From the NCBI GenBank assembly GCA_031292555.1, contig JARLGV010000089.1:1-64000 (forward strand): a DNA stretch of 64,000 nt, in the 5' to 3' direction. This document shows positions 5,080 through 22,203 of this stretch, one piece after another. The stretch is from Fimbriimonas sp. (GTDB lineage Bacteria > Armatimonadota > Fimbriimonadia > Fimbriimonadales > Fimbriimonadaceae). The position numbers and the translations under genes were made by a program. Each line of letters opens with the position of its first letter. The first letter of the stretch is position 1. The notes beneath the pieces are model-generated. The model did no database searches. It was not told where the DNA came from and saw only the letters and a list, made by a program, of their open reading frames with translations.

Positions 5080-6594
5080 ATGACGCCGAAGGAGGGTCTG
5101 CTCCGGTACGCCACTCTGCTGTGGGCTCTCGCGATCGGAATGTTGGCGACCGGAGTGCGGATCGGCCTCCTGCAGCGATTCGGCGTGGTGACCGAGTCCG
5201 ACACCCTTGGCTACCAGGAGATGGCGAGGGCGCTCTCCACCTTCGACATGGGCAGCGACGTCGGCATCCGAACGCCCGGATATCCGGCTTTCATGGTGCT
5301 GGCCGGCCAAAGCGAGTGGGGGGTGGCAGTAGCCCAGATCGGGTTGGCGGTTGCCGCCTGCGTCGCCCTTTTCGACGCCATCCGCCTCGAAACCGGGCGG
5401 GCTCGGGTCGGCGCAATCGCGGCCGGGCTCTATGCGGTATGGCCCGTCTTCGCCCGATGGGACACGACCCTGCTTACCGAAAGCCTCGCTACCTCGTTAA
5501 CGCTGCTTTGCGTGTGGAGTTGCGTTCGGTACCGGGCGTCTCGTCGGTTGGCTTGGATCGGATGGGCGGGCTTGTTGGGGGCGATAACCTGTCTGGTTCG
5601 CCCGAACCTTTTGCCAGTCGCCTTTCTCGTGGCGATCTGGGCGATCTCGATTGCGTTCCGAAAGCTGGGACCACGATGGCAGACGCTTGCGCTGACGATG
5701 GTTCCGGTCGCGGTGCTGGTCGGAGGTTGGTGCTCGTTGAATGCCGCTCGCTTCGGGTGGTTCGGCCTATCGACGGTGACCGGCTTTGGAGTGACCAACC
5801 TGGACGGCGACCTCCTCGCCCGGCTTCCTCCGGGCCGCGATGCGGTTCGGGACGCCTATGTCGCGTCGAGCGCGGCATTCGTCGAGAGTCGCCGGACCCG
5901 GGACCAGGCGATATGGGCCGCTCTGCCGGCGATGGTTCGTTCGACCGGCCATTCGATTCCAACGCTGTCCCACGAGTTGATGCGGTCGCACGTTCTTGCC
6001 GCCGAAACCTATCCGGCTGCGCTCGCCGGATCTATCGCGACGGGCTATGTTCGATTCTGGACCGAGGAACCTTTCGGATGGCTCAATGAGAGCGACCACG
6101 CGCTTGTCCGGTTCGACGCCGGGTCGACGCCGAGCGGGAAATCTTTGACGCAGAACGGCTTTCTCCGATCCGGCTTGCGGGCCGCCGCCCGCATCTCCCA
6201 CGCGGCATTTCTCGCCTTCCTCGCCGTCGTTCCGCTAGCGCTGTTCGAGAGGCTATCCCGGCGGAGCCGATGGGCGCTCGCCGCCATCGTCGCGTTGGCT
6301 GGAACGATGTTCTCGTCGGTCGGGAACCCGATCGTCTGCGCCTTCTTCTTCGCCGCGACGCCGGTGGGGCTCGTCGCGAGCTACCGGAATAGGGCCAATG
6401 CGGTCCTCGGACTGCTGGCGGCGATCGCTTGGTCGGTGTCCCTGCTGACCGCGTCAGTCGAGTACGCGAAGGGGCGCTTCAACGTGCCTTTGGCGCCGCT
6501 GACCGTCGCCGCCCTGGCCATCTGCCTCTGCCCTCAGGCGAACGTCAAACCGTCGAACGAAAACGAGACAGTCAGCGCGCCGCCGATCGAATAG
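5080..6594 (+). CDS. GT-C type membrane glycosyltransferase
   Basis: The 504-residue protein has about ten membrane helices. The acidic DTLGY stretch and the RTPGYPAF motif in the first periplasmic loop are typical of family 39/83-like glycosyltransferases that move sugars from polyprenyl-phosphate carriers. It is the only plus-strand gene in the distal tail region. Its last 61 bases overlap the 3' end of the opposing 1011-residue tail gene. With the acyltransferase at the left edge it suggests a surface-modification (serotype-conversion) cargo. Acceptor and donor cannot be told from sequence. Confidence 0.75.
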   Translation: MTPKEGLLRYATLLWALAIGMLATGVRIGLLQRFGVVTESDTLGYQEMARALSTFDMGSDVGIRTPGYPAFMVLAGQSEWGVAVAQIGLAVAACVALFDAIRLETGRARVGAIAAGLYAVWPVFARWDTTLLTESLATSLTLLCVWSCVRYRASRRLAWIGWAGLLGAITCLVRPNLLPVAFLVAIWAISIAFRKLGPRWQTLALTMVPVAVLVGGWCSLNAARFGWFGLSTVTGFGVTNLDGDLLARLPPGRDAVRDAYVASSAAFVESRRTRDQAIWAALPAMVRSTGHSIPTLSHELMRSHVLAAETYPAALAGSIATGYVRFWTEEPFGWLNESDHALVRFDAGSTPSGKSLTQNGFLRSGLRAAARISHAAFLAFLAVVPLALFERLSRRSRWALAAIVALAGTMFSSVGNPIVCAFFFAATPVGLVASYRNRANAVLGLLAAIAWSVSLLTASVEYAKGRFNVPLAPLTVAALAICLCPQANVKPSNENETVSAPPIE

Positions 6595-9741: not shown

Positions 9742-9764
9742 TTACGACAACGTCGTAAGGCGAA
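9736..9764 (-). terminator. 13-bp perfect hairpin across a stop codon
   Basis: TTCGCCTTACGAC (9736-9748) and its exact complement (9752-9764) flank a three-base loop. The hairpin covers the stop codon of the 820-residue tail gene. No T-run follows on either strand. It could act as a processing or stability element, or a weak terminator separating the two large tail genes. Confidence 0.5.
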
Positions 9765-12204
9765 CAATCGGGCGTCTCGCGATTTGGGCTCCGTGGTCGA
9801 AGACTCGTTGCTTCGACAACGCTTTCAGCGTGTTCCAGTTAAGGCCGATCGAGCGAGCGGTGGTGCCGTGGACGTCGAGGGGGGCGACGATGGGGGTGGA
9901 CTCGCCGACGTAGCGGCAGGGACGCCAAACGGCATCGGGCGAGGACGACGAACCGAAGGCGCCGACGTGCTCGAACGAACCGCTGAACGTCTTCACCCGA
10001 ACCGTCACCGGCGAGCCCTCGGAACCCCGATCCAGGGCAATCAGGTCGCCGCGCCACAACCCGGGCTGGTATTCGCACTCGAACTCCACGACCTGCCGGG
10101 CGAATGGGAGCCGTCCGGCCAAAACAGTAGCGACATAGGCGCATGCGTCCACAGTCGTCAGGGTCGGGTCTACCCAGCTGTATTTCCGCAGGTAACCCAG
10201 CCAATTCACGGAACGACTCGCGGGAGCGACTGTTGGATCCGCGTCCGCCTTCATCGCGGCCGTCTGAAGGTGGACGACGATCGGCTTTTGCGATCGAGGG
10301 TCGCAGCCGGTCACCCAAATATCGTTCGATTCCGGTTCGAGGACCTGGACTTTGTAGGTCCGGTAAACGAACCGATAGGCGTTGGATGATGTGATGCCGG
10401 GAAAGCCGGACGCCAGTGCCTCGGCGCTAGAGCGGTAAAGGGTGACCGTCGCCGTCGACGGAAGGGCATATCCAGGCGTCGAATCGAAAGGATCTATCAG
10501 GCTCAGCACCGGAGGGTCGCTCGGACTCGCCGGGTTGGGCCGGAATCCATGGAACCAGGTCGACGCATAGGTCTGATGCAGTCGATCGAGCCACTCGGAC
10601 CCCTTGTCGCCCACCTGGACCATCACATTCCAGTCGCCGCCGGATGCGGAGCCAGCGTTGCACAGGGTGAATCCGGCAGCGGCGGGCGAGACGTAGACGG
10701 CGGATGCCGGGATGCCGATCGTCTCGGCAAGCAGGGCGTAGGCGTCGGTCAACGTCATGCCGTCAAGGGGAATCGGATCGCTGAAGACGTACTCTTCCGC
10801 CAGCTTCCATCGGTCGCGTACATCCAATTCGACCTCCTGATTTCGGTCGATACCGTCCGCGTTGAACCCAAAGCCGTCCACCCAAACCGGTGGCTCGCAA
10901 ATCCCGTCCAGCAGCATGCCGTACTCGTCGAAGACCTGCATCGGCCTATGGCACTGTGACGTGCACGCCGGAACACCGGCGGCCTCAATGGCGCCCGGCC
11001 GGTTCAGTGTGACGCTCAATCGCGCCCCACCGACGGTGTCCGACACGTCGAGGCGGCATCCAACGGCATAGGGGACCACGTCTACCGGCGCGCCTTCACC
11101 CGACGTGGTCGCCGCCGTTTCGGAAGGATAGTAGGCACGGGCGCCGTAGACGAAGGGGGTCTGCGTCGGACCGCCAGACAGACTCAATTCGATCTGCACG
11201 GGCAGGTCCGGCGGAGTGTTGGTCGTCGGCGGATTGCCCGGGTTCATCACCGCGCCGGTCACCGAACCGGTCGCGGTAAGGGCGCGATAAATCCGAATCT
11301 GGGCATCGATGCCGTTCGTTGGGTCCTCGGTCGTGTTGAGGGGAGGCGCATTGCGCCAGGTGCTCGGAACACCGCAGATCGTCCCCGTGCTCGCATATTG
11401 CAGAGGAGCGATTCTCAGATTCGCCTGAGCCGGCGAGGGGACGTAGAACCAGAATGGCGCGCTGTCGGTGATCGTAAGGCCGGCGGTGGCTTCGCCGAGG
11501 TCCTCGAAGATGTGGGAGAAGCCCCCGCCCATGCTTGATACGACCAGGAGTTCGCGGTCCCGGCAGGGGATCAGCACCGTCAGGATGTAGCCGTTCTTCG
11601 GCGCCTGGGGAGTGGCACCGCCACCGAACTGGGTCGCGACCGCATGGTGAGGGCTGAAGTAGTCCGGCTGGTTTCCACCAATCGAGTAGATCCCGACCAT
11701 CGCATTGGCCTTCCACACTTCGGCCCGGCCGTCCGCATAGAAACGCAACGAAACACCGGCCGAGCCGTCGCCCGAATACGACCAACCGCACTCGAACACC
11801 GCGTAAGGAGAGTTGGTCGTGGGCTGGCTGAACCACTCCACGGCCATCGGTTGGTTCGCCGGCAGAACGGCCCCGCCAATGCCTTGGAGTCCGCTAGTGT
11901 TGCCGGATGCCCCAAGGTACTGCAGGAACGGCCCTCCGCCATCCGGCTGGTGAGTGCCCCAGCCAGAAGACGGACTGAGCGTGAAGTCCCCGATGCCGTA
12001 TTTGGTATAGATTCCGGCGTAAGAGTTAGACCAATCGGCATAGAAGCACGCCGGTCTCAACATACACGTGTTGGTGATCGGGTCGACCCACACATCCTGC
12101 CAATTCGTGGGCGACCAGTCCCGCCCGGAGACGAGAACGCTCATCGCATCGGTCTTGAGACGCGATTGAGCGGAGTCGATCAGGATGGAAAGTGGGTTGG
12201 ACAT
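9742..12204 (-). CDS. Phage tail tip/baseplate hub-like protein
   Basis: The protein has 820 residues from an ATG at 12204. The N-terminal half looks like a lectin- or LamG-like beta domain (residues about 40-250). The C-terminal half, with segments such as VELDVRDRWKLAEEY and QVVEFECEYQPGLWRGDLIAL, resembles hub proteins that combine a ring domain and a late tail-attachment domain, as in siphophage tail tips. It sits after the tape-measure position, where a distal tail or hub protein is expected. The assignment rests on position and general character rather than a decisive motif. The stop lies inside a strong hairpin. Confidence 0.55.
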   Translation of the reverse strand: MSNPLSILIDSAQSRLKTDAMSVLVSGRDWSPTNWQDVWVDPITNTCMLRPACFYADWSNSYAGIYTKYGIGDFTLSPSSGWGTHQPDGGGPFLQYLGASGNTSGLQGIGGAVLPANQPMAVEWFSQPTTNSPYAVFECGWSYSGDGSAGVSLRFYADGRAEVWKANAMVGIYSIGGNQPDYFSPHHAVATQFGGGATPQAPKNGYILTVLIPCRDRELLVVSSMGGGFSHIFEDLGEATAGLTITDSAPFWFYVPSPAQANLRIAPLQYASTGTICGVPSTWRNAPPLNTTEDPTNGIDAQIRIYRALTATGSVTGAVMNPGNPPTTNTPPDLPVQIELSLSGGPTQTPFVYGARAYYPSETAATTSGEGAPVDVVPYAVGCRLDVSDTVGGARLSVTLNRPGAIEAAGVPACTSQCHRPMQVFDEYGMLLDGICEPPVWVDGFGFNADGIDRNQEVELDVRDRWKLAEEYVFSDPIPLDGMTLTDAYALLAETIGIPASAVYVSPAAAGFTLCNAGSASGGDWNVMVQVGDKGSEWLDRLHQTYASTWFHGFRPNPASPSDPPVLSLIDPFDSTPGYALPSTATVTLYRSSAEALASGFPGITSSNAYRFVYRTYKVQVLEPESNDIWVTGCDPRSQKPIVVHLQTAAMKADADPTVAPASRSVNWLGYLRKYSWVDPTLTTVDACAYVATVLAGRLPFARQVVEFECEYQPGLWRGDLIALDRGSEGSPVTVRVKTFSGSFEHVGAFGSSSSPDAVWRPCRYVGESTPIVAPLDVHGTTARSIGLNWNTLKALSKQRVFDHGAQIARRPIVRLTTLS

Positions 12205-12226: not shown

Positions 12227-12892
12227 TTAAGATCGAGGCACGATACCTTGACGAATCATTTCGGCAAGGTGCCGAGTGAGTCGCTCGTCGACATACTCGG
12301 AGATGGCATCGGAAAGCCGCTTCGATGTCGCGTGTGCGGAGAGGACTGGCATCGCTTGACGCTCGATCGGAGCTACACCCAACCGTCCCTGCCGGTCGCC
12401 TCCATAGGCGCGCGCCTTTGCCGGTTCGTGGAACGCCTCGGCCCAGCCTGGATCGATTGCGACCCGCTGCGGCGACCCATTCAGGTCGGACAGGCTGGCT
12501 GGCGGCTCTTCGATAGCCCACGGCAAGAAGCCTTGGGTTCCGGCTAGGCCGGGTATGCCGGCCAGCCAATCCGGAAGGGCCGAGCGGTAGACGGCGTCCG
12601 GAATGGATCGAGCGAGGCGAATCTGCTCGGAGGGCTCGGGCGGCGCGGTACCGCGGTCGCCGAACGAATCGGTTGCAAAACCCTCGCGATCGCCGCTTTC
12701 GGCTGGCGCCGGTGCGACGACGGGCAAGGGGTCGATCTTGTGTTCTTCGTTTCGCACCGGTCGAAGAATTACCGATTGGGCAATTGCCGATCGTCTTGCC
12801 GAAGGCTGCATCGGCTTCGGAGCACTGTCCGGCGAGGGGTGAGCGAACAGGGCGGCAAACGGGTTTGCCTTGATTCGATGTTGTGGGTTCAA
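12227..12892 (-). CDS. Protein at the tape-measure position (short)
   Basis: I chose the TTG at 12892 because AGGAG lies six bases upstream, giving 221 residues; an in-frame TTG at 12937 has no such site. The protein is proline- and alanine-rich in its first 100 residues and ends in a helix-forming stretch (DAISEYVDERLTRHLAEMIRQ). It directly follows the frameshifted tail chaperone, where tailed phages keep the tape measure gene, but it is far shorter than the usual 600-1500 residues and lacks long helical repeats. It may be a miniature or replaced tape measure, or an unrelated tail protein. Confidence 0.5.
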   Translation of the reverse strand: MNPQHRIKANPFAALFAHPSPDSAPKPMQPSARRSAIAQSVILRPVRNEEHKIDPLPVVAPAPAESGDREGFATDSFGDRGTAPPEPSEQIRLARSIPDAVYRSALPDWLAGIPGLAGTQGFLPWAIEEPPASLSDLNGSPQRVAIDPGWAEAFHEPAKARAYGGDRQGRLGVAPIERQAMPVLSAHATSKRLSDAISEYVDERLTRHLAEMIRQGIVPRS

Positions 12893-12911: not shown

Positions 12912-13052
12912 TCAGCCTTCCTCGTCGAGCGCCGCAAAGTCGAAGAGCATCTCGTCGTCCCGAGGTTCTCCTTCGAGTTCCCGAGGATGGCATCGCCAGA
13001 TCTCGCGGCAAAGGGTCAATCGGATGCGCCAGTCTGGACTGGCGCGGAGTCT
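12912..13052 (-). CDS. Tail chaperone extension reached by -1 frameshift (T part)
   Basis: This 46-codon open frame overlaps the end of the tail chaperone gene in the -1 frame. It has no good start of its own but is entered from the A7 run at 13058-13052. It reads AGA CTC CGC and so on to a TGA at 12912, ending in an acidic tail (DFAALDEEG). Fused to the first 147 residues it would give a 193-residue protein. This mirrors lambda G and G-T, where the longer form is made at low ratio and binds the tape measure. The next gene's AGGAG begins nine bases after the stop. Confidence 0.7.
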   Translation of the reverse strand, partial: RLRASPDWRIRLTLCREIWRCHPRELEGEPRDDEMLFDFAALDEEG

Positions 13053-13492
13053 TTTTTTGCCGCATCCACCGCCAGGCGCCCTGTCTCTTCTAGGTTGCCG
13101 GAGATGCGCGCCTGGACTTGGCTGAGCACCTGCTCGAACAGAACGGGGCAAACGTGCTGCAAACGGAGGAACTCAGCCTCGCTCCCGTCCATGCAGAGCC
13201 GGCCCAAGAAGTACACCCAGATTAGGGTCTCGCGATCCGAGGTCCAGTAGGGCCGCAATGGTCCGGGGCAATTCGCCTCGGACAGCGAATCGGCAAATCG
13301 ATGGGCGGCATTTCGGATCGACACGAGCGATTTGCGGCTGCACACTGGGTTGAAACGAAGTGCTTCGACGTCGGTGATCGGCACTTCGAACGGCTCGGCG
13401 GTCGGTTCGATCGTTCGAAAGAGCGTTTCGAAAACGGGGTAACGAGGTGGTTCCAGAATAGTGAGCTCCTCCCATGTGGGCGATGGCGTCAA
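13016..13492 (-). CDS. Tail assembly chaperone (G-like)
   Basis: The 158-residue protein starts at a TTG at 13492 without a strong ribosome site. It has no recognisable domain but lies between tail tube and tape-measure positions, exactly where the G/GT chaperones of long-tailed phages are found. Near its end the codons GCA AAA AAA GAC form a slippery run; normal decoding continues 11 more residues to a TGA. The nearby frameshift frame supports the function more strongly than the sequence itself does. Confidence 0.65.
   Translation of the reverse strand: MTPSPTWEELTILEPPRYPVFETLFRTIEPTAEPFEVPITDVEALRFNPVCSRKSLVSIRNAAHRFADSLSEANCPGPLRPYWTSDRETLIWVYFLGRLCMDGSEAEFLRLQHVCPVLFEQVLSQVQARISGNLEETGRLAVDAAKKDSAPVQTGASD
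13052..13058 (-). promoter_or_regulatory. Slippery heptamer A AAA AAA for -1 frameshifting
   Basis: Seven A in a row on the minus strand, phased as GCA AAA AAA in the chaperone frame. This is the classic X XXY YYZ type. A one-base slip continues into the overlapping frame that ends at 12912. Confidence 0.75.
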
Positions 13493-13598
13493 AAGTAGGG
13501 TTTGACGCTCCGCGTTTCCTTATCGAGATCCTAGGTATTTCGACGTACCGAATTGGTGTGACCCCAAAGTAGCGACCGTGGAATTTGAGAGGTGTTTG

Positions 13599-13604
13599 TA
13601 TAAT
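13599..13604 (+). promoter_or_regulatory. -10 box of the prepilin gene
   Basis: TATAAT, preceded by TG, lies 25 bases before the chosen prepilin start at 13630. No clear -35 hexamer is seen at 16-18 bases. It gives the prepilin its own plus-strand promoter inside the minus-strand tail operon. Confidence 0.55.
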
Positions 13605-13629
13605 TACCTTTATGAAGGACGATGTTAGA

Positions 13630-13998
13630 ATGTCCCGCTATAGGAAAGGATTTACACTCATCGAACTTCTTGTGGTGGTGTTGATTCTCGGCATCCTCAC
13701 GGCAATCGCATTGCCTGCTTACCTAAGTAGTGTTCAATTCAACCGGCAAGGCACTGCAAACGCCAACGCTCGGTCTTTGTCCATTGCGGTTCAGGCGGCC
13801 GCTATTGCGCCGCACACCTACGACACGACGCTCGCCGACTATTCGGCATCGATGGGAGGTTCATTGCCCTCGAACCCCTGCACCGGTACGACCACCGGGT
13901 TCACGATCACCGCTTCTGGGGCAACTGCGACCGTTTCGGCCAACACAGGAACGAATTGCGGAGCTTGGACGCCGTTGACGTTCAACCTCGCCCTATAG
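13630..13998 (+). CDS. Type IV prepilin-like protein inside the tail operon
   Basis: The 122-residue protein begins MSRYRKG followed by FTLIELLVVVLILGILTAI: a short basic leader, the prepilin peptidase site after KG, phenylalanine at +1, glutamate at +5, and the hydrophobic assembly helix. AAGGA lies ten bases before this ATG; an in-frame ATG at 13612 is also possible. The C-terminal part has two cysteines (NPCTG and NCGAW) that could form the pilin D-loop disulphide. It lies between tail tube and tail chaperone genes but on the opposite strand with its own -10 box, so it is cargo rather than a virion gene. It would be processed and exported by a type IV pilus or type II secretion machine. 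Confidence 0.85.
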   Translation: MSRYRKGFTLIELLVVVLILGILTAIALPAYLSSVQFNRQGTANANARSLSIAVQAAAIAPHTYDTTLADYSASMGGSLPSNPCTGTTTGFTITASGATATVSANTGTNCGAWTPLTFNLAL

Positions 13999-13999
13999 C

Positions 14000-14782
14000 T
14001 TAGGAGCTCCAAGCCGCGCCGCCTTGAATGGCCAACTCTCCGGTCTGCTCGATGAGGGACGCGTTCTGAAATGTTGTTGTTAACTCAGTCAGGAGCCCGG
14101 TTTGACCGGATCCGGTCGCATAGGTTCCGCCGCCCGTGTTCGCGGACAGGGTCACCAGTGCGGTTCCGAGCAGCATGTTTCCTAGAAGGCTCGAATCGCT
14201 CGGTCCAGTTGGAGTCCCCGCCAGGGTAAGGACGACCTCCTCCATCTGCATTTCATCCCGGTCGACGGTGTGCTTTCCGCTTTGGATCGACATGGGGCAT
14301 GAGAAGGCGGTTCCAGCAAAGCTGATCGCGGCCGTCAAATCGAAGGATGAGGCGGATCCGGTGAGAAGCGTGTCCAGGAACGGAGCAGAGGTCACGATGA
14401 GTTTCTCGGTATGCACTTCGACTGAGGTGCGCGTCGCGTTGGGAAAGGCGTAAGCATCGGCGATGCCGCTCCCATCTTTATGGGTCGTGGTGGCGCGAAT
14501 CACACCGCGCCGAATCGTCCCAAGGTAGCCGGTTCCTCCGATTGTCCACAGCGTGATATCGAGGTTGGAGGCGAGTAGCCCGCCCGTGCCGGGCAAGTGG
14601 ACGGTGAACTTGGCCTTCTGAGACTGCTTCACCGCCTGATGAATGGAATAGCGGTCCGCGAGGCCGCCGGCATCGGCTTGCTCGTTTACTGCTTCGAATG
14701 AGAACGACTTGAGCACGGCCAGAAGATCGGTCCCGCCGAGATTGAACGCTGCGAAGTGCAAAGCGGTAAGTGGAGTGGACAT
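14000..14782 (-). CDS. Major tail tube-like protein
   Basis: The 260-residue protein is rich in small polar residues and beta-prone segments, without membrane helices or signal. It sits between the tail-completion-like gene and the tail chaperone, which is the invariant place of the tail tube gene in long-tailed phages. No single motif proves it. The absence of a sheath-like gene beside it argues for a non-contractile tail. Its stop is one base from the stop of the convergent prepilin gene. Confidence 0.6.
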   Translation of the reverse strand: MSTPLTALHFAAFNLGGTDLLAVLKSFSFEAVNEQADAGGLADRYSIHQAVKQSQKAKFTVHLPGTGGLLASNLDITLWTIGGTGYLGTIRRGVIRATTTHKDGSGIADAYAFPNATRTSVEVHTEKLIVTSAPFLDTLLTGSASSFDLTAAISFAGTAFSCPMSIQSGKHTVDRDEMQMEEVVLTLAGTPTGPSDSSLLGNMLLGTALVTLSANTGGGTYATGSGQTGLLTELTTTFQNASLIEQTGELAIQGGAAWSS

Positions 14783-19144: not shown

Positions 19145-19320
19145 CCCCCCCGTAGCCGCTGCCTCCGTGGCAGCGCCAGAAACCAACGGGACATGGACCC
19201 TGAAGCGAAGCCCGCAGCCCCCGTAGCCGCTGCCTCCGTGGCAGCGCCAGAAATCAACGGGACATGGGCCCTGAAGCGAAGCCCGCAGCCCCCGTAGCCG
19301 CTGCCTCCGTGGCAGCGCAA
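19145..19320 (+). repeat. Tandem array of three hairpin repeats, 71-bp period
   Basis: The core CGCTGCCTCCGTGGCAGCG occurs at 19157-19175, 19228-19246 and 19299-19317, exactly 71 bases apart. The flanks also repeat: GCAGCCCCCGTAGC before and CAGAAAYCAACGGGACATGG after. Confidence 0.9.
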
Positions 19321-19433
19321 GAAACCCAACGGGACGCGGCACATCCTGGTAGACGACGGTGTTGGATCGATCGCCTAGCGCGGCCGCCGTGACCGGCCCA
19401 TCCGCCACTCCTCTGCCGGAGGGGATCGCGTCG

Positions 19434-19546: not shown

Positions 19547-19996
19547 CTACTCGTCGCTTCCCACGGTCAGGTCGGCCCTTTCGCCGGTTCCGCCGGGGGC
19601 GCCGTCGGCTCCGTAGGATGTGACGGCGAAGCCTTTGCCGGCCGGGCCGGGGCATCGGTAGCGATAGGCGTAGCCCCAGTCGTCGCGGAGCAAGCGCATG
19701 TTCAGATACGGACCTGACCACCCTTGAATCCCGGCGGGCTTTACGTACAACGCCTGCAAACCTTCCCTCTGATGTGGATACCGGCCGCAGTCCACGCGGA
19801 ACTGATCGATGGCGTTGCTCAGGGTGGCAAGGTCAGAGAGGGTCTTGGCTTGCCGACTGCTTCGTCCACCCAGGATCGTCGGCATGAAGTATGCAGCCGC
19901 GAACCCGGACAGGAGGATTGCTCCGGCGACAACTGTTACTACGAACCCCCTCGTTCGGATTTGGATCGTTTGTGGCAGTTCAATCATCGACGGCAA
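19547..19996 (-). CDS. Pseudopilin GspG-like protein, copy 2
   Basis: The 149-residue protein has one membrane helix (about 18-40) and a C-terminal GspG-type domain: AIDQFRVDCGRYPHQREGLQ, then GPYLNMR, DDWGYAYRYRCPG and SYGADGAPGGTGE. In type II secretion the G pseudopilin forms the pseudopilus shaft with calcium bound near this C-terminus. The N-terminus lacks the G-F-T-L-x-E cleavage motif, so it is probably an uncleaved membrane protein. It is closely similar to the gene at 20273-20722 (tandem duplication). Both lie in the phage head operon where a Mu-F-like minor head gene would be expected. Confidence 0.8.
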   Translation of the reverse strand: MPSMIELPQTIQIRTRGFVVTVVAGAILLSGFAAAYFMPTILGGRSSRQAKTLSDLATLSNAIDQFRVDCGRYPHQREGLQALYVKPAGIQGWSGPYLNMRLLRDDWGYAYRYRCPGPAGKGFAVTSYGADGAPGGTGERADLTVGSDE

Positions 19997-20096
19997 TTCC
20001 CCCTGCTAACTGTCTAGACGACCCAGCCGAACGCCCGTTCGATCATTGGGGTTAGAGTTCACCAATACTTGTACCGGAGCCCGCTGCCCCCGTAGC

Positions 20097-20115
20097 CGCT
20101 GCCTCCGTGGCAGCG
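20097..20115 (+). repeat. Hairpin repeat copy between the pseudopilin genes
   Basis: Core CGCTGCCTCCGTGGCAGCG with the usual CCCCCGTAGC before it and an AGAAACCGAATGGGACACGG flank after it, like the 19-kb array. It lies between the two pseudopilin genes, about 100 bases upstream of copy 2. Confidence 0.85.
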
Positions 20116-20272
20116 CTAGAAACCGAATGGGACACGGCGCATGAGGATGGACGACAGATCGGAGAGGGCGACGAATCGATCATCGGGCACTGCTGTGGCC
20201 GACTTTTCTGCCATTCTCGTGCCTTTGGAGTACGCTTCGCGCAGCTACGGAGGCGACGAGGGTTGCTACCCG

Positions 20273-20722
20273 CTACTCATCGCTTCCGTTCGAGATGTCC
20301 GCGTCATCGCCAGTGCCTCCGGGGCGACCGTCGGCTCCGTAGGACAGGACTTGATAGCCCCTACCCGTCGGGCTTGGACAGCGATAGTGATAGGGGAACC
20401 CCCATACGTCGGGGGGCATCCGCATTTTCAGATACGGTCCATTCCAGCCTTTTGCGTCGACGGGCTTGTCGTATAGTGCCGAGAACCCCTCGCTTTGCTT
20501 GGGATATCGTCCGCAGTCCAAACGAAACTGATCGATCGCGTTGCTCAACGCGGCGAGATCCGCCGGGGTTCTACGAGTACTGGTGGCCGTCCTGCTAAGG
20601 ACGATGGGGAGCAAGTACAGCGCGACGAAAACGAGCAGCACGATGGACCACATCGCTATGGTGGCCATACGCCAGGGATCTCGCGTTCTCCGTACCTCCT
20701 GTTCAATGGACGCAAGATTCAT
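20273..20722 (-). CDS. Pseudopilin GspG-like protein, copy 1
   Basis: The first in-frame ATG is at 20722 (MNLASIEQEVRRTRDPW), giving 149 residues. A membrane helix spans about residues 20-40. The C-terminal half has the GspG pattern (AIDQFRLDCGRYPKQSEG, GPYLKMRMPPDVWG, YHYRCPSPTG, SYGADGRPGGTGDDADI). The canonical prepilin cleavage site and Glu+5 are missing. It begins 98 bases after the portal gene stop, on the same strand, so it is probably cotranscribed with the virion genes. With copy 2 and the plus-strand prepilin it makes three pilin-like genes in this block. Confidence 0.8.
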   Translation of the reverse strand: MNLASIEQEVRRTRDPWRMATIAMWSIVLLVFVALYLLPIVLSRTATSTRRTPADLAALSNAIDQFRLDCGRYPKQSEGFSALYDKPVDAKGWNGPYLKMRMPPDVWGFPYHYRCPSPTGRGYQVLSYGADGRPGGTGDDADISNGSDE

Positions 20723-20820
20723 ACCATCACCGTAATCGCCCAGACGAATCTGCCTCGACTCAAGTTCATCTTCCAAGGTTAGAAGATAACAATACAGCCC
20801 CCCCTCGTAAACCCCGAACC

Positions 20821-22203
20821 CTAAACTCCGACCCCCGCCCTTTCCGGCAACCCAAGGATCTCCCGATCGATGTCGGGCAGTTGCGACGGGTCGATGTAGC
20901 CGGCGGTCACCAAAGAGGCGACGGCGGTGGCGTTGATCGCGAAGTCGGGGCGCGACATCTTGAGCATCGTCGCGACCGGTGTGTATCGCTCGGCGAAGGC
21001 GGCGCCGAAATTCATCTCTACGAACGGCCGGAACAACCGGTGGGTCAGCATGTCGCAGATCTCGCGCCGTACGAACTGAACGAGGTCGTCGACCACGTCT
21101 TGGGAGGCTCCGGTGTCCGCCTTCGACCCGTGCCGCGCTTCGAGCATCGCTCGCCCGGAAAGAAGGAAGGTGGTCACCATCTCCCGGTCGCAACGGTCGA
21201 AGAAGTCCTCGAAATACTGGCCATTCGAATCGGGCCGATGCACTTCGACTTTCGTCCCGCCCGGAAACGTAGCGGTGCCTCCGTTCGATAGCTGCTGCAG
21301 AATCGACTGGATCGCGGCTTGAATGTGAACGGTCTTGCCCGATACCGGATCCTGCACGTTGACTTGGTTGATGTCTTCCGGCGCGATCGCGGTGATCATC
21401 CCGCCGCCGAACTGAACCGCCGTCTTCACCGCTTCCGGCTTGACGATCTGCTTGCGGTACCAGGGATCGTATGCTCGCCGGAACCACGATTGACCTCGAG
21501 GGTCGCCATCCTTCCCGCCGAAAGTGAGCAGCATCAGCTTGCTCGGAGCAATCGCGTTGGGAATCCGATCCAACCCGTAGACGATGCCGTTGCGAAGCGC
21601 GATCGACACGCCCGGCACGACTGCGATCACGCCCCGAAGAGAGTTGTATTCATCGAGCACGAACGCATAGTTCTGACGCGGCTTGGGCCGGATGGAGCGA
21701 GGGACGACCCGGCCGGCAAGGGCGCCCGATTCGACGATTTCGGCGTCGATCTCGGCAAGCCGGTGCCCCTTGTGCATGGCATCCAGCATCTCCCACAGGA
21801 TCTTCCGGATGGGCCGGTCGGTGATCGCCAAGCGGTCGACGAACGCCTGACAGAAGTCGGCCGCCACTCGCGCCTTGGCAAACTCGGCGTGCTTGGAGGC
21901 CGGCGCATGAGGCCGGGGCTCCTCGATGCATGGCGTCACGTGGAGGTCGACGCTGAGCGTCAGAATCTTCAGATAGGCCTCCGCTCCGCCGAGCATTGCG
22001 TCATTTGCCATCCTTTCGTAGATGTCCGGCCCAAAGTCGCGCTCCGCATCGTCGATCGTCTGAGCCAGCGCCCGGTCTGTTTGCAGAAACCCGTACTCGA
22101 CCGAGGAGCCGATGTACGAGCCGACGAGGTCGGTCGCCACCGATTGCCGATCTTGAATCGGAGGTCGGCCGGTTGTCGGGCGAGGTTGCGTGCGTTTCTT
22201 CAT
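20821..22203 (-). CDS. Phage portal protein (DUF935/Mu gp29-like)
   Basis: The 460-residue protein follows the terminase by six bases. Its order and content (an N-terminal basic segment, then the central FRRAYDPWYRKQ and GGGMITAIAPEDI region, and C-terminal ATAVASLVTAGYIDPSQLPDID) fit the DUF935 portal family used by Mu-like phages. The portal forms the dodecameric ring through which DNA enters the capsid. The Mu-type portal combined with lambda-type D/E capsid genes shows module mixing. Confidence 0.8.
   Translation of the reverse strand: MKKRTQPRPTTGRPPIQDRQSVATDLVGSYIGSSVEYGFLQTDRALAQTIDDAERDFGPDIYERMANDAMLGGAEAYLKILTLSVDLHVTPCIEEPRPHAPASKHAEFAKARVAADFCQAFVDRLAITDRPIRKILWEMLDAMHKGHRLAEIDAEIVESGALAGRVVPRSIRPKPRQNYAFVLDEYNSLRGVIAVVPGVSIALRNGIVYGLDRIPNAIAPSKLMLLTFGGKDGDPRGQSWFRRAYDPWYRKQIVKPEAVKTAVQFGGGMITAIAPEDINQVNVQDPVSGKTVHIQAAIQSILQQLSNGGTATFPGGTKVEVHRPDSNGQYFEDFFDRCDREMVTTFLLSGRAMLEARHGSKADTGASQDVVDDLVQFVRREICDMLTHRLFRPFVEMNFGAAFAERYTPVATMLKMSRPDFAINATAVASLVTAGYIDPSQLPDIDREILGLPERAGVGV

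Follow-up and report, generated by a model that had tools for sequence, protein, structure and literature searches.

Overlapping frames in the late operon

The window, the whole 64-kb stretch of DNA that was analysed, carries phage late genes on its minus strand between 6.5 and 23.6 kb, with terminase (PF17289, PF03237), Mu-type portal (PF06074, E=1.6e-30) and major head protein (PHROG 29, E=2e-10) families. Among them is a small gene, here called G, a candidate tail assembly chaperone, close to whose end the minus strand reads GCA AAA AAA GAC (13060–13049). The slippery heptamer A AAA AAA (13058–13052, minus strand) is thus in register with the gene and is followed by a G. The 0-frame G part spans 13055–13492 on the minus strand, ending one codon short of the last slip codon, and its start codon is uncertain; beyond the slip site the 0 frame continues for 11 codons plus a stop (13016–13051, minus strand, stop at 13016), a tail whose length varies from 0 to 34 codons across the 11 loci compared. 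The -1 frame is open from 13052 for 46 codons, ends in the acidic sequence ...DEEG and stops at 12912 (12912–13052, minus strand); it is the putative T part that frameshifting would add to G. Nine bases beyond the T stop begins AGGAG, the Shine-Dalgarno motif of the next gene (12903–12899, minus strand). These features had been proposed earlier from the letters alone (the sequence-only reading), and we recovered the slip site with the sequence, register and coordinates claimed, as well as the 46-codon frame with its acidic tail and the position of AGGAG. The A7 at the slip site is the sole A7/T7 run of the window, compared with 0.014 per 500 nt expected from a first-order model, and in relatives the protein read in the -1 frame is conserved; both points speak against chance.

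The 193-residue product of the sequence-only reading (147 + 46) stands if TTG 13492 is the start of G, but this codon has no Shine-Dalgarno sequence before it. A strong one, GGGAGGAG, lies at 13473–13466 (minus strand), 6 nt ahead of ATT 13459 and 9 nt ahead of CTG 13456, and downstream of it we found these two codons but no ATG, GTG or TTG. G may start at one of these non-standard codons, in which case the fusion would have 182 or 181 residues.

G is followed by a candidate mini tape-measure gene (12227–12892, minus strand; 221 aa from TTG 12892, or 236 aa if the longest ORF is taken) and by a conserved tail-tip/hub-like protein of 820 aa (9742–12204, minus strand), which served as synteny anchor. 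On its other side a type IV pilin-like gene (N_methyl; 13585–13998, plus strand) sits, moron-like and on the opposite strand, between G and a candidate major tail protein of 260 aa (14000–14782, minus strand); the last is assigned by position and synteny only, with no Pfam or PHROG family match. One relative (locus L012) has no gene in the place of the pilin-like gene.

Conservation of the -1 extension

When G was used as query against 101 genomes, matches were found in nine, the window's own genome included, three of them spurious; the weak matches L009, L010 and L011 (E 0.002–0.007) had no matching overlap and were dropped. A profile of G (A1) matched in 12 of the 291 genomes of the phylum, the real homologue in G080 lying on a different contig from the first match. 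Eleven of these 12 homologues keep the -1 extension, with the motif R-[LI]-...-W-R-x-R-L-x-V-x-R-x-V...HPxEL in those nearest to the window. Conversely, a T profile built from eight relatives, the window excluded, matched 12927–13052 on the minus strand in a whole-genome search (E=1.1e-9), and across the 291 genomes it matched 13, of which eight were already in the G list; L078 and L079 were dropped after inspection, and L076 and L077 lie outside the sample.

Searching with a profile made from the 820-aa hub protein led to eight named genome loci, all from Armatimonadetes or Fimbriimonadaceae metagenome-assembled genomes, and to 16 IMG/VR viral loci. G was found by HMM in 11 of the 16, with T in -1 in every one (11/11), and two further viral loci have a T-like frame in -1 relative to an overlapping ORF; neither G nor T was found in three (L050, L058, L060). 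T lies in -1 wherever these loci carry it, and the conserved overlap in related phages, which the sequence-only reading had suggested looking for, was present in 11 of the 12 phylum homologues and in all 11 viral loci with G.

Removal of copies and addition of L074 from the T-profile search gave 22 distinct loci. L049 and L051 (the same stretch as L031) and L055 (the same as L052) were left out, and L074, L059 and L061 are among the 22 by their T-like frame and overlap alone, having no G match. For 18 loci that could be aligned gap-free (L028, L059, L061 and L074 left out), mean amino-acid identity over 153 pairs was 0.36 in the T frame, against 0.19 and 0.18 in the two alternative frames, and T codon positions 1, 2 and 3 differed at 0.52, 0.48 and 0.68, third positions most. 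Upstream of the slip the T frame contains no ATG, GTG or TTG in 15 of the 22 loci, so that T is not separately started there unless a rarer codon is used or the start lies after the slip.

Slip sites and a predicted hairpin

The slip site itself varies between loci. A AAA AAA occurs in 11 of the 22 (the window, L005, L006, L007, L026, L027, L031, L046, L052, L053 and L054), A AAA AAG in one (L028), A AAA AAC in six (L029, L048, L056, L059, L061, L074) and G GGG GAA or G GGG GAG in four (L008, L047, L057, L030). These last four have no strict X XXY YYZ heptamer, and would suggest that only the P-site tRNA slips.

Downstream of the heptamer we found a predicted stimulatory hairpin, GCGCCAGU-CCAG-ACUGGCGC (13026–13045, minus strand), of 8 bp and beginning 6 nt past the slip site (p=0.024 against other positions, p=0.005 against synonymous resampling). 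Counting perfect helices only, a helix of score at least 7 starts 5–9 nt past the heptamer in 11 of the 22 loci, whereas other positions in these loci lead one to expect 0.82, and resampling the T frame synonymously 1.31; the corresponding Fisher p values, 2e-11 and 1.5e-8, are not strict probabilities, as the loci are related. Helix starts cluster at 6–10 nt (7 nt in 11 loci), with none at 12 nt or more. In an arm-swap test the score was -352 when each locus kept its own arms; with 3' arms taken from other loci it was -226 (sd 14.8), and 20,000 permutations produced no value as low as that of the own arms. The 3' arm falls at differing codons between loci, indicating a structure that persists although its bases and the position of the partner change. 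Registers differ accordingly, and fixed-register covariation found register 7–44 fully paired (9/9) only in L008 and L029 among the 22.

The signal is uneven across loci. Eleven of the 22 have no perfect helix of score 7 or more, L053 and L052 having essentially none, and no such hairpin was seen in L031. The window ranks 14th of 22 in the arm-swap test, whose arm windows miss its short hairpin; its fold energy gave z=-1.3 against shuffles, and in a separate energy test it gave p about 0.19 on both controls (L028, 0.62–0.83). An upstream Shine-Dalgarno-like stimulator was not convincing (combined p 0.03, with five of the 22 loci below 0.1 and the window at p=0.081), and no significant link was found between a short tape measure and a stronger hairpin (Mann-Whitney p=0.14). 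Our literature search by title found no paper describing a hairpin at tail-chaperone frameshifts; a tool trained on phage chaperone frameshifts is reported to have given an ambiguous result in a sweep of downstream-structure windows (PMC10885494). The hairpin goes beyond the sequence-only reading, and would be expected to stimulate the slip.

Probable identity of G and the candidate short tape measure

The AlphaFold model of G, built on a 19-row alignment (pLDDT 86, pTM 0.72), is a beta hairpin with a helical bundle. After realignment the best PDB chains were the HK97 chaperone 2ob9 and YqbN (3klu), both with Z 5.5, and 5ir0, a PICI-like element protein, with Z 4.2, unrelated rows starting at Z 3.3. 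The match to 2ob9 covers 96 residues at 9% sequence identity, and its Z is middling. We take YqbN and the PICI protein to be chaperones of the same kind as the HK97 protein. Foldseek gave no PDB match for the model at E<=0.001, a PDB sequence search with G gave nothing at E below 0.2, and scans of G and T proteins against Pfam and PHROG, taken up to E=1, turned up nothing named chaperone.

The gene after T encodes 451–657 aa in 16 loci. Of seven such proteins scanned, three matched tape-measure PHROGs at E<=0.001 (L048, L036 and L046, with values including 6.7e-15 and 1.3e-10), L035 matched weakly (0.014), L015 did not match, and the two short forms among the seven had no match. In the window and three relatives of the same genus the gene after T has shrunk to 163–236 aa, and these short forms keep only the final 60 residues, with the motif GG..G..G(V/I). 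Over those residues the relatives' tape-measure profile matched L013 (9.6e-8), L012 (1.5e-5) and L014 (9.4e-5); the C-terminal 59 residues of the window protein gave E=0.009, the lowest E among 1,000 shuffled short proteins being 0.26, and L032 had no match to the profile. In lambda, tail length follows 0.15–0.18 nm per tape-measure residue, a rule which, applied to the short tape measure, would give a tail of about 25–40 nm. The short tape-measure candidate, like the hairpin, goes beyond the sequence-only reading; no paper describing very short tape measures was found by title.

Discussion

Judged from the sequence (the frame, its register and conservation, the self-matching hairpin arms and the tape measure that comes next in relatives), the window gene is very probably a G/GT-type tail assembly chaperone of a prophage in an uncultured Armatimonadota bacterium, with a programmed -1 slip that adds T. 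The comparative evidence supports this proposal of the sequence-only reading: 11 of 12 homologues keep the -1 frame, slip sites of differing kinds lie in register, 15 of 22 loci lack a T start upstream of the slip, a tape measure comes next in relatives, and the predicted fold is chaperone-like. We infer the slip, its rate, its stimulation by the hairpin and the roles of the two products as follows. Most ribosomes would read G through to the stop at 13016. A minority would move back by one base at A AAA AAA, with help from the 8-bp hairpin that starts six bases further on, and the resulting longer protein would carry the 46 residues of T at its end. If the products behave as in lambda, G would coat the tape measure and T would recruit the tail tube protein, after which both would leave.

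Other ways of joining or separating the two frames have to be weighed against this. RNA polymerase could add or drop bases in the A7, so that part of the mRNAs join G and T; such transcriptional slippage would give nearly the same product, and 12 of the 22 loci, the window among them, have A7–A8 runs. The other 10, however, have A AAA AAC or G GGG GAR, with no long homopolymer and with the register of tRNA slippage, and a hairpin at a fixed 5–9 nt suits a ribosomal mechanism rather than a transcriptional one, which leaves this explanation improbable. Still less probable is that T is a small gene of its own, overlapping G: the -1 frame of the window does offer a TTG at 13151, 93 nt ahead of the run, but no Shine-Dalgarno sequence precedes it, and in 15 of the 22 loci this frame holds no start codon ahead of the slip, several of them having just 1–2 open codons there. 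Least probable of all, in our view, is an overlap produced by a chance open frame or by a sequencing indel within a single gene; the relative G019 does not have the overlapping frame, but the same architecture recurs in 22 distinct loci from many assemblies with differing slip sites, and the -1 peptide is conserved, as the T profile and the identity in the T frame attest.

A frameshifted tail chaperone is an old, widespread and known kind of phage device. The frameshift in the lambda G/GT tail assembly chaperone was reportedly described by Xu, Hendrix and Duda. The sequence-only reading held that place and structure match lambda, and for place this is so only in outline, because the plus-strand pilin-like gene stands between the tail-protein candidate and G and because the candidate tape measure has only about 221 aa, versus 853 aa in the lambda annotation. 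The two systems have in common a -1 slip, predicted in the window, towards the 3' end of a small gene ahead of the tape measure, and a low-level extension carrying a second domain, widely conserved in position and little in sequence. They differ in the heptamer (A AAA AAA in the window, G GGA AAG in lambda), in the hairpin, which starts 6 nt downstream in the window whereas lambda has none at 5–9 nt (score 3.9), and in that G and T of the window match no named profile. For lambda, a G/GT ratio of about 30:1, with G binding the tape measure and T the tail tube, and wide conservation are reported (PMC5009743).

HK97, whose gp13/gp14 (2ob9) ties for first place among the structural matches to the G model and has an annotated -1 frameshift, also has a tail cluster interrupted by a moron, which follows GT there, whereas the moron-like gene of the window precedes G; a canonical scan did not resolve the HK97 slip site, which was therefore left out as a yardstick. 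With the dnaX-type -1 signal the window shares an A-rich heptamer and a hairpin just downstream, but that signal includes an upstream Shine-Dalgarno sequence, of which the window has no convincing counterpart, and the gene is different. The gene transfer agent RcGTA has a short tail and a small tape measure, and this small tape measure likewise lies beside a tail chaperone. Frameshifting of 6–7% was measured for HK97-like chaperone genes, and a hairpin is part of the dnaX signal (PMC3711429).

These loci stand out as a variant by their self-matching hairpin, their varied slip sites, an apparently shortened tape measure and a single natural loss of T. Our title search found no paper on tail frameshifting for the phylum Armatimonadota, and these loci extend the G/GT frameshift to Armatimonadota prophages whose protein families lie outside public profiles. 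The self-matching arms make this a phage tail system whose slip rate should be tunable. We would tentatively suggest, as a possibility that we hold with some doubt, that in these phages the frameshift is driven by a dedicated hairpin, which evolution has re-made again and again at one set distance from the slip site, that the branch with a tape measure of 163–221 residues keeps the machinery with its G:GT ratio tuned for a tail of 25–40 nm, and that G019 has given up the second product.

Loss of the overlapping frame in a close relative, which the sequence-only reading had named as a sign against itself, occurs once, in this same G019 (locus L012), and the frame is kept in the other 11 of the 12 homologues. 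G019 is the closest homologue by G (46–50% identical); in L012, at 5177–6080, its G ends without an A run or T and overlaps the start of the next gene, the short tape-measure gene. Since full-length tail genes surround this G, T appears to be dispensable. One Rhodobacter phage is likewise reported to lack the chaperone frameshift signal (PMC8601537), so that absence of the G019 type would not be unique. The mini-tape-measure branch, with one member that has no T, is therefore a natural experiment on the role of the second chaperone product.

Other features of the late operon

The genome holds one more identical copy of GCAAAAAAAGAC (C27), which was considered and set aside: it adjoins an oxidoreductase-like ORF, and no phage gene cluster was seen around it. 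Between the portal and head genes lie two GspG pseudopilin genes of type II secretion (19547–19996 and 20273–20869, minus strand; PF08334, E=1.9e-28 and 9.7e-30), which account for two of the four GspG matches in the whole genome, and a relative (L014) has three GspG-like stretches in the same place of its late operon. A repeat of about 35 bases (CCCCCGTAGCCGCTGCCTCCGTGGCAGCG...) occurs at 19147–19359, 20087–20157, 31874, 39269 and 44445, in part as tandem 71-base units, inside as well as outside the prophage.
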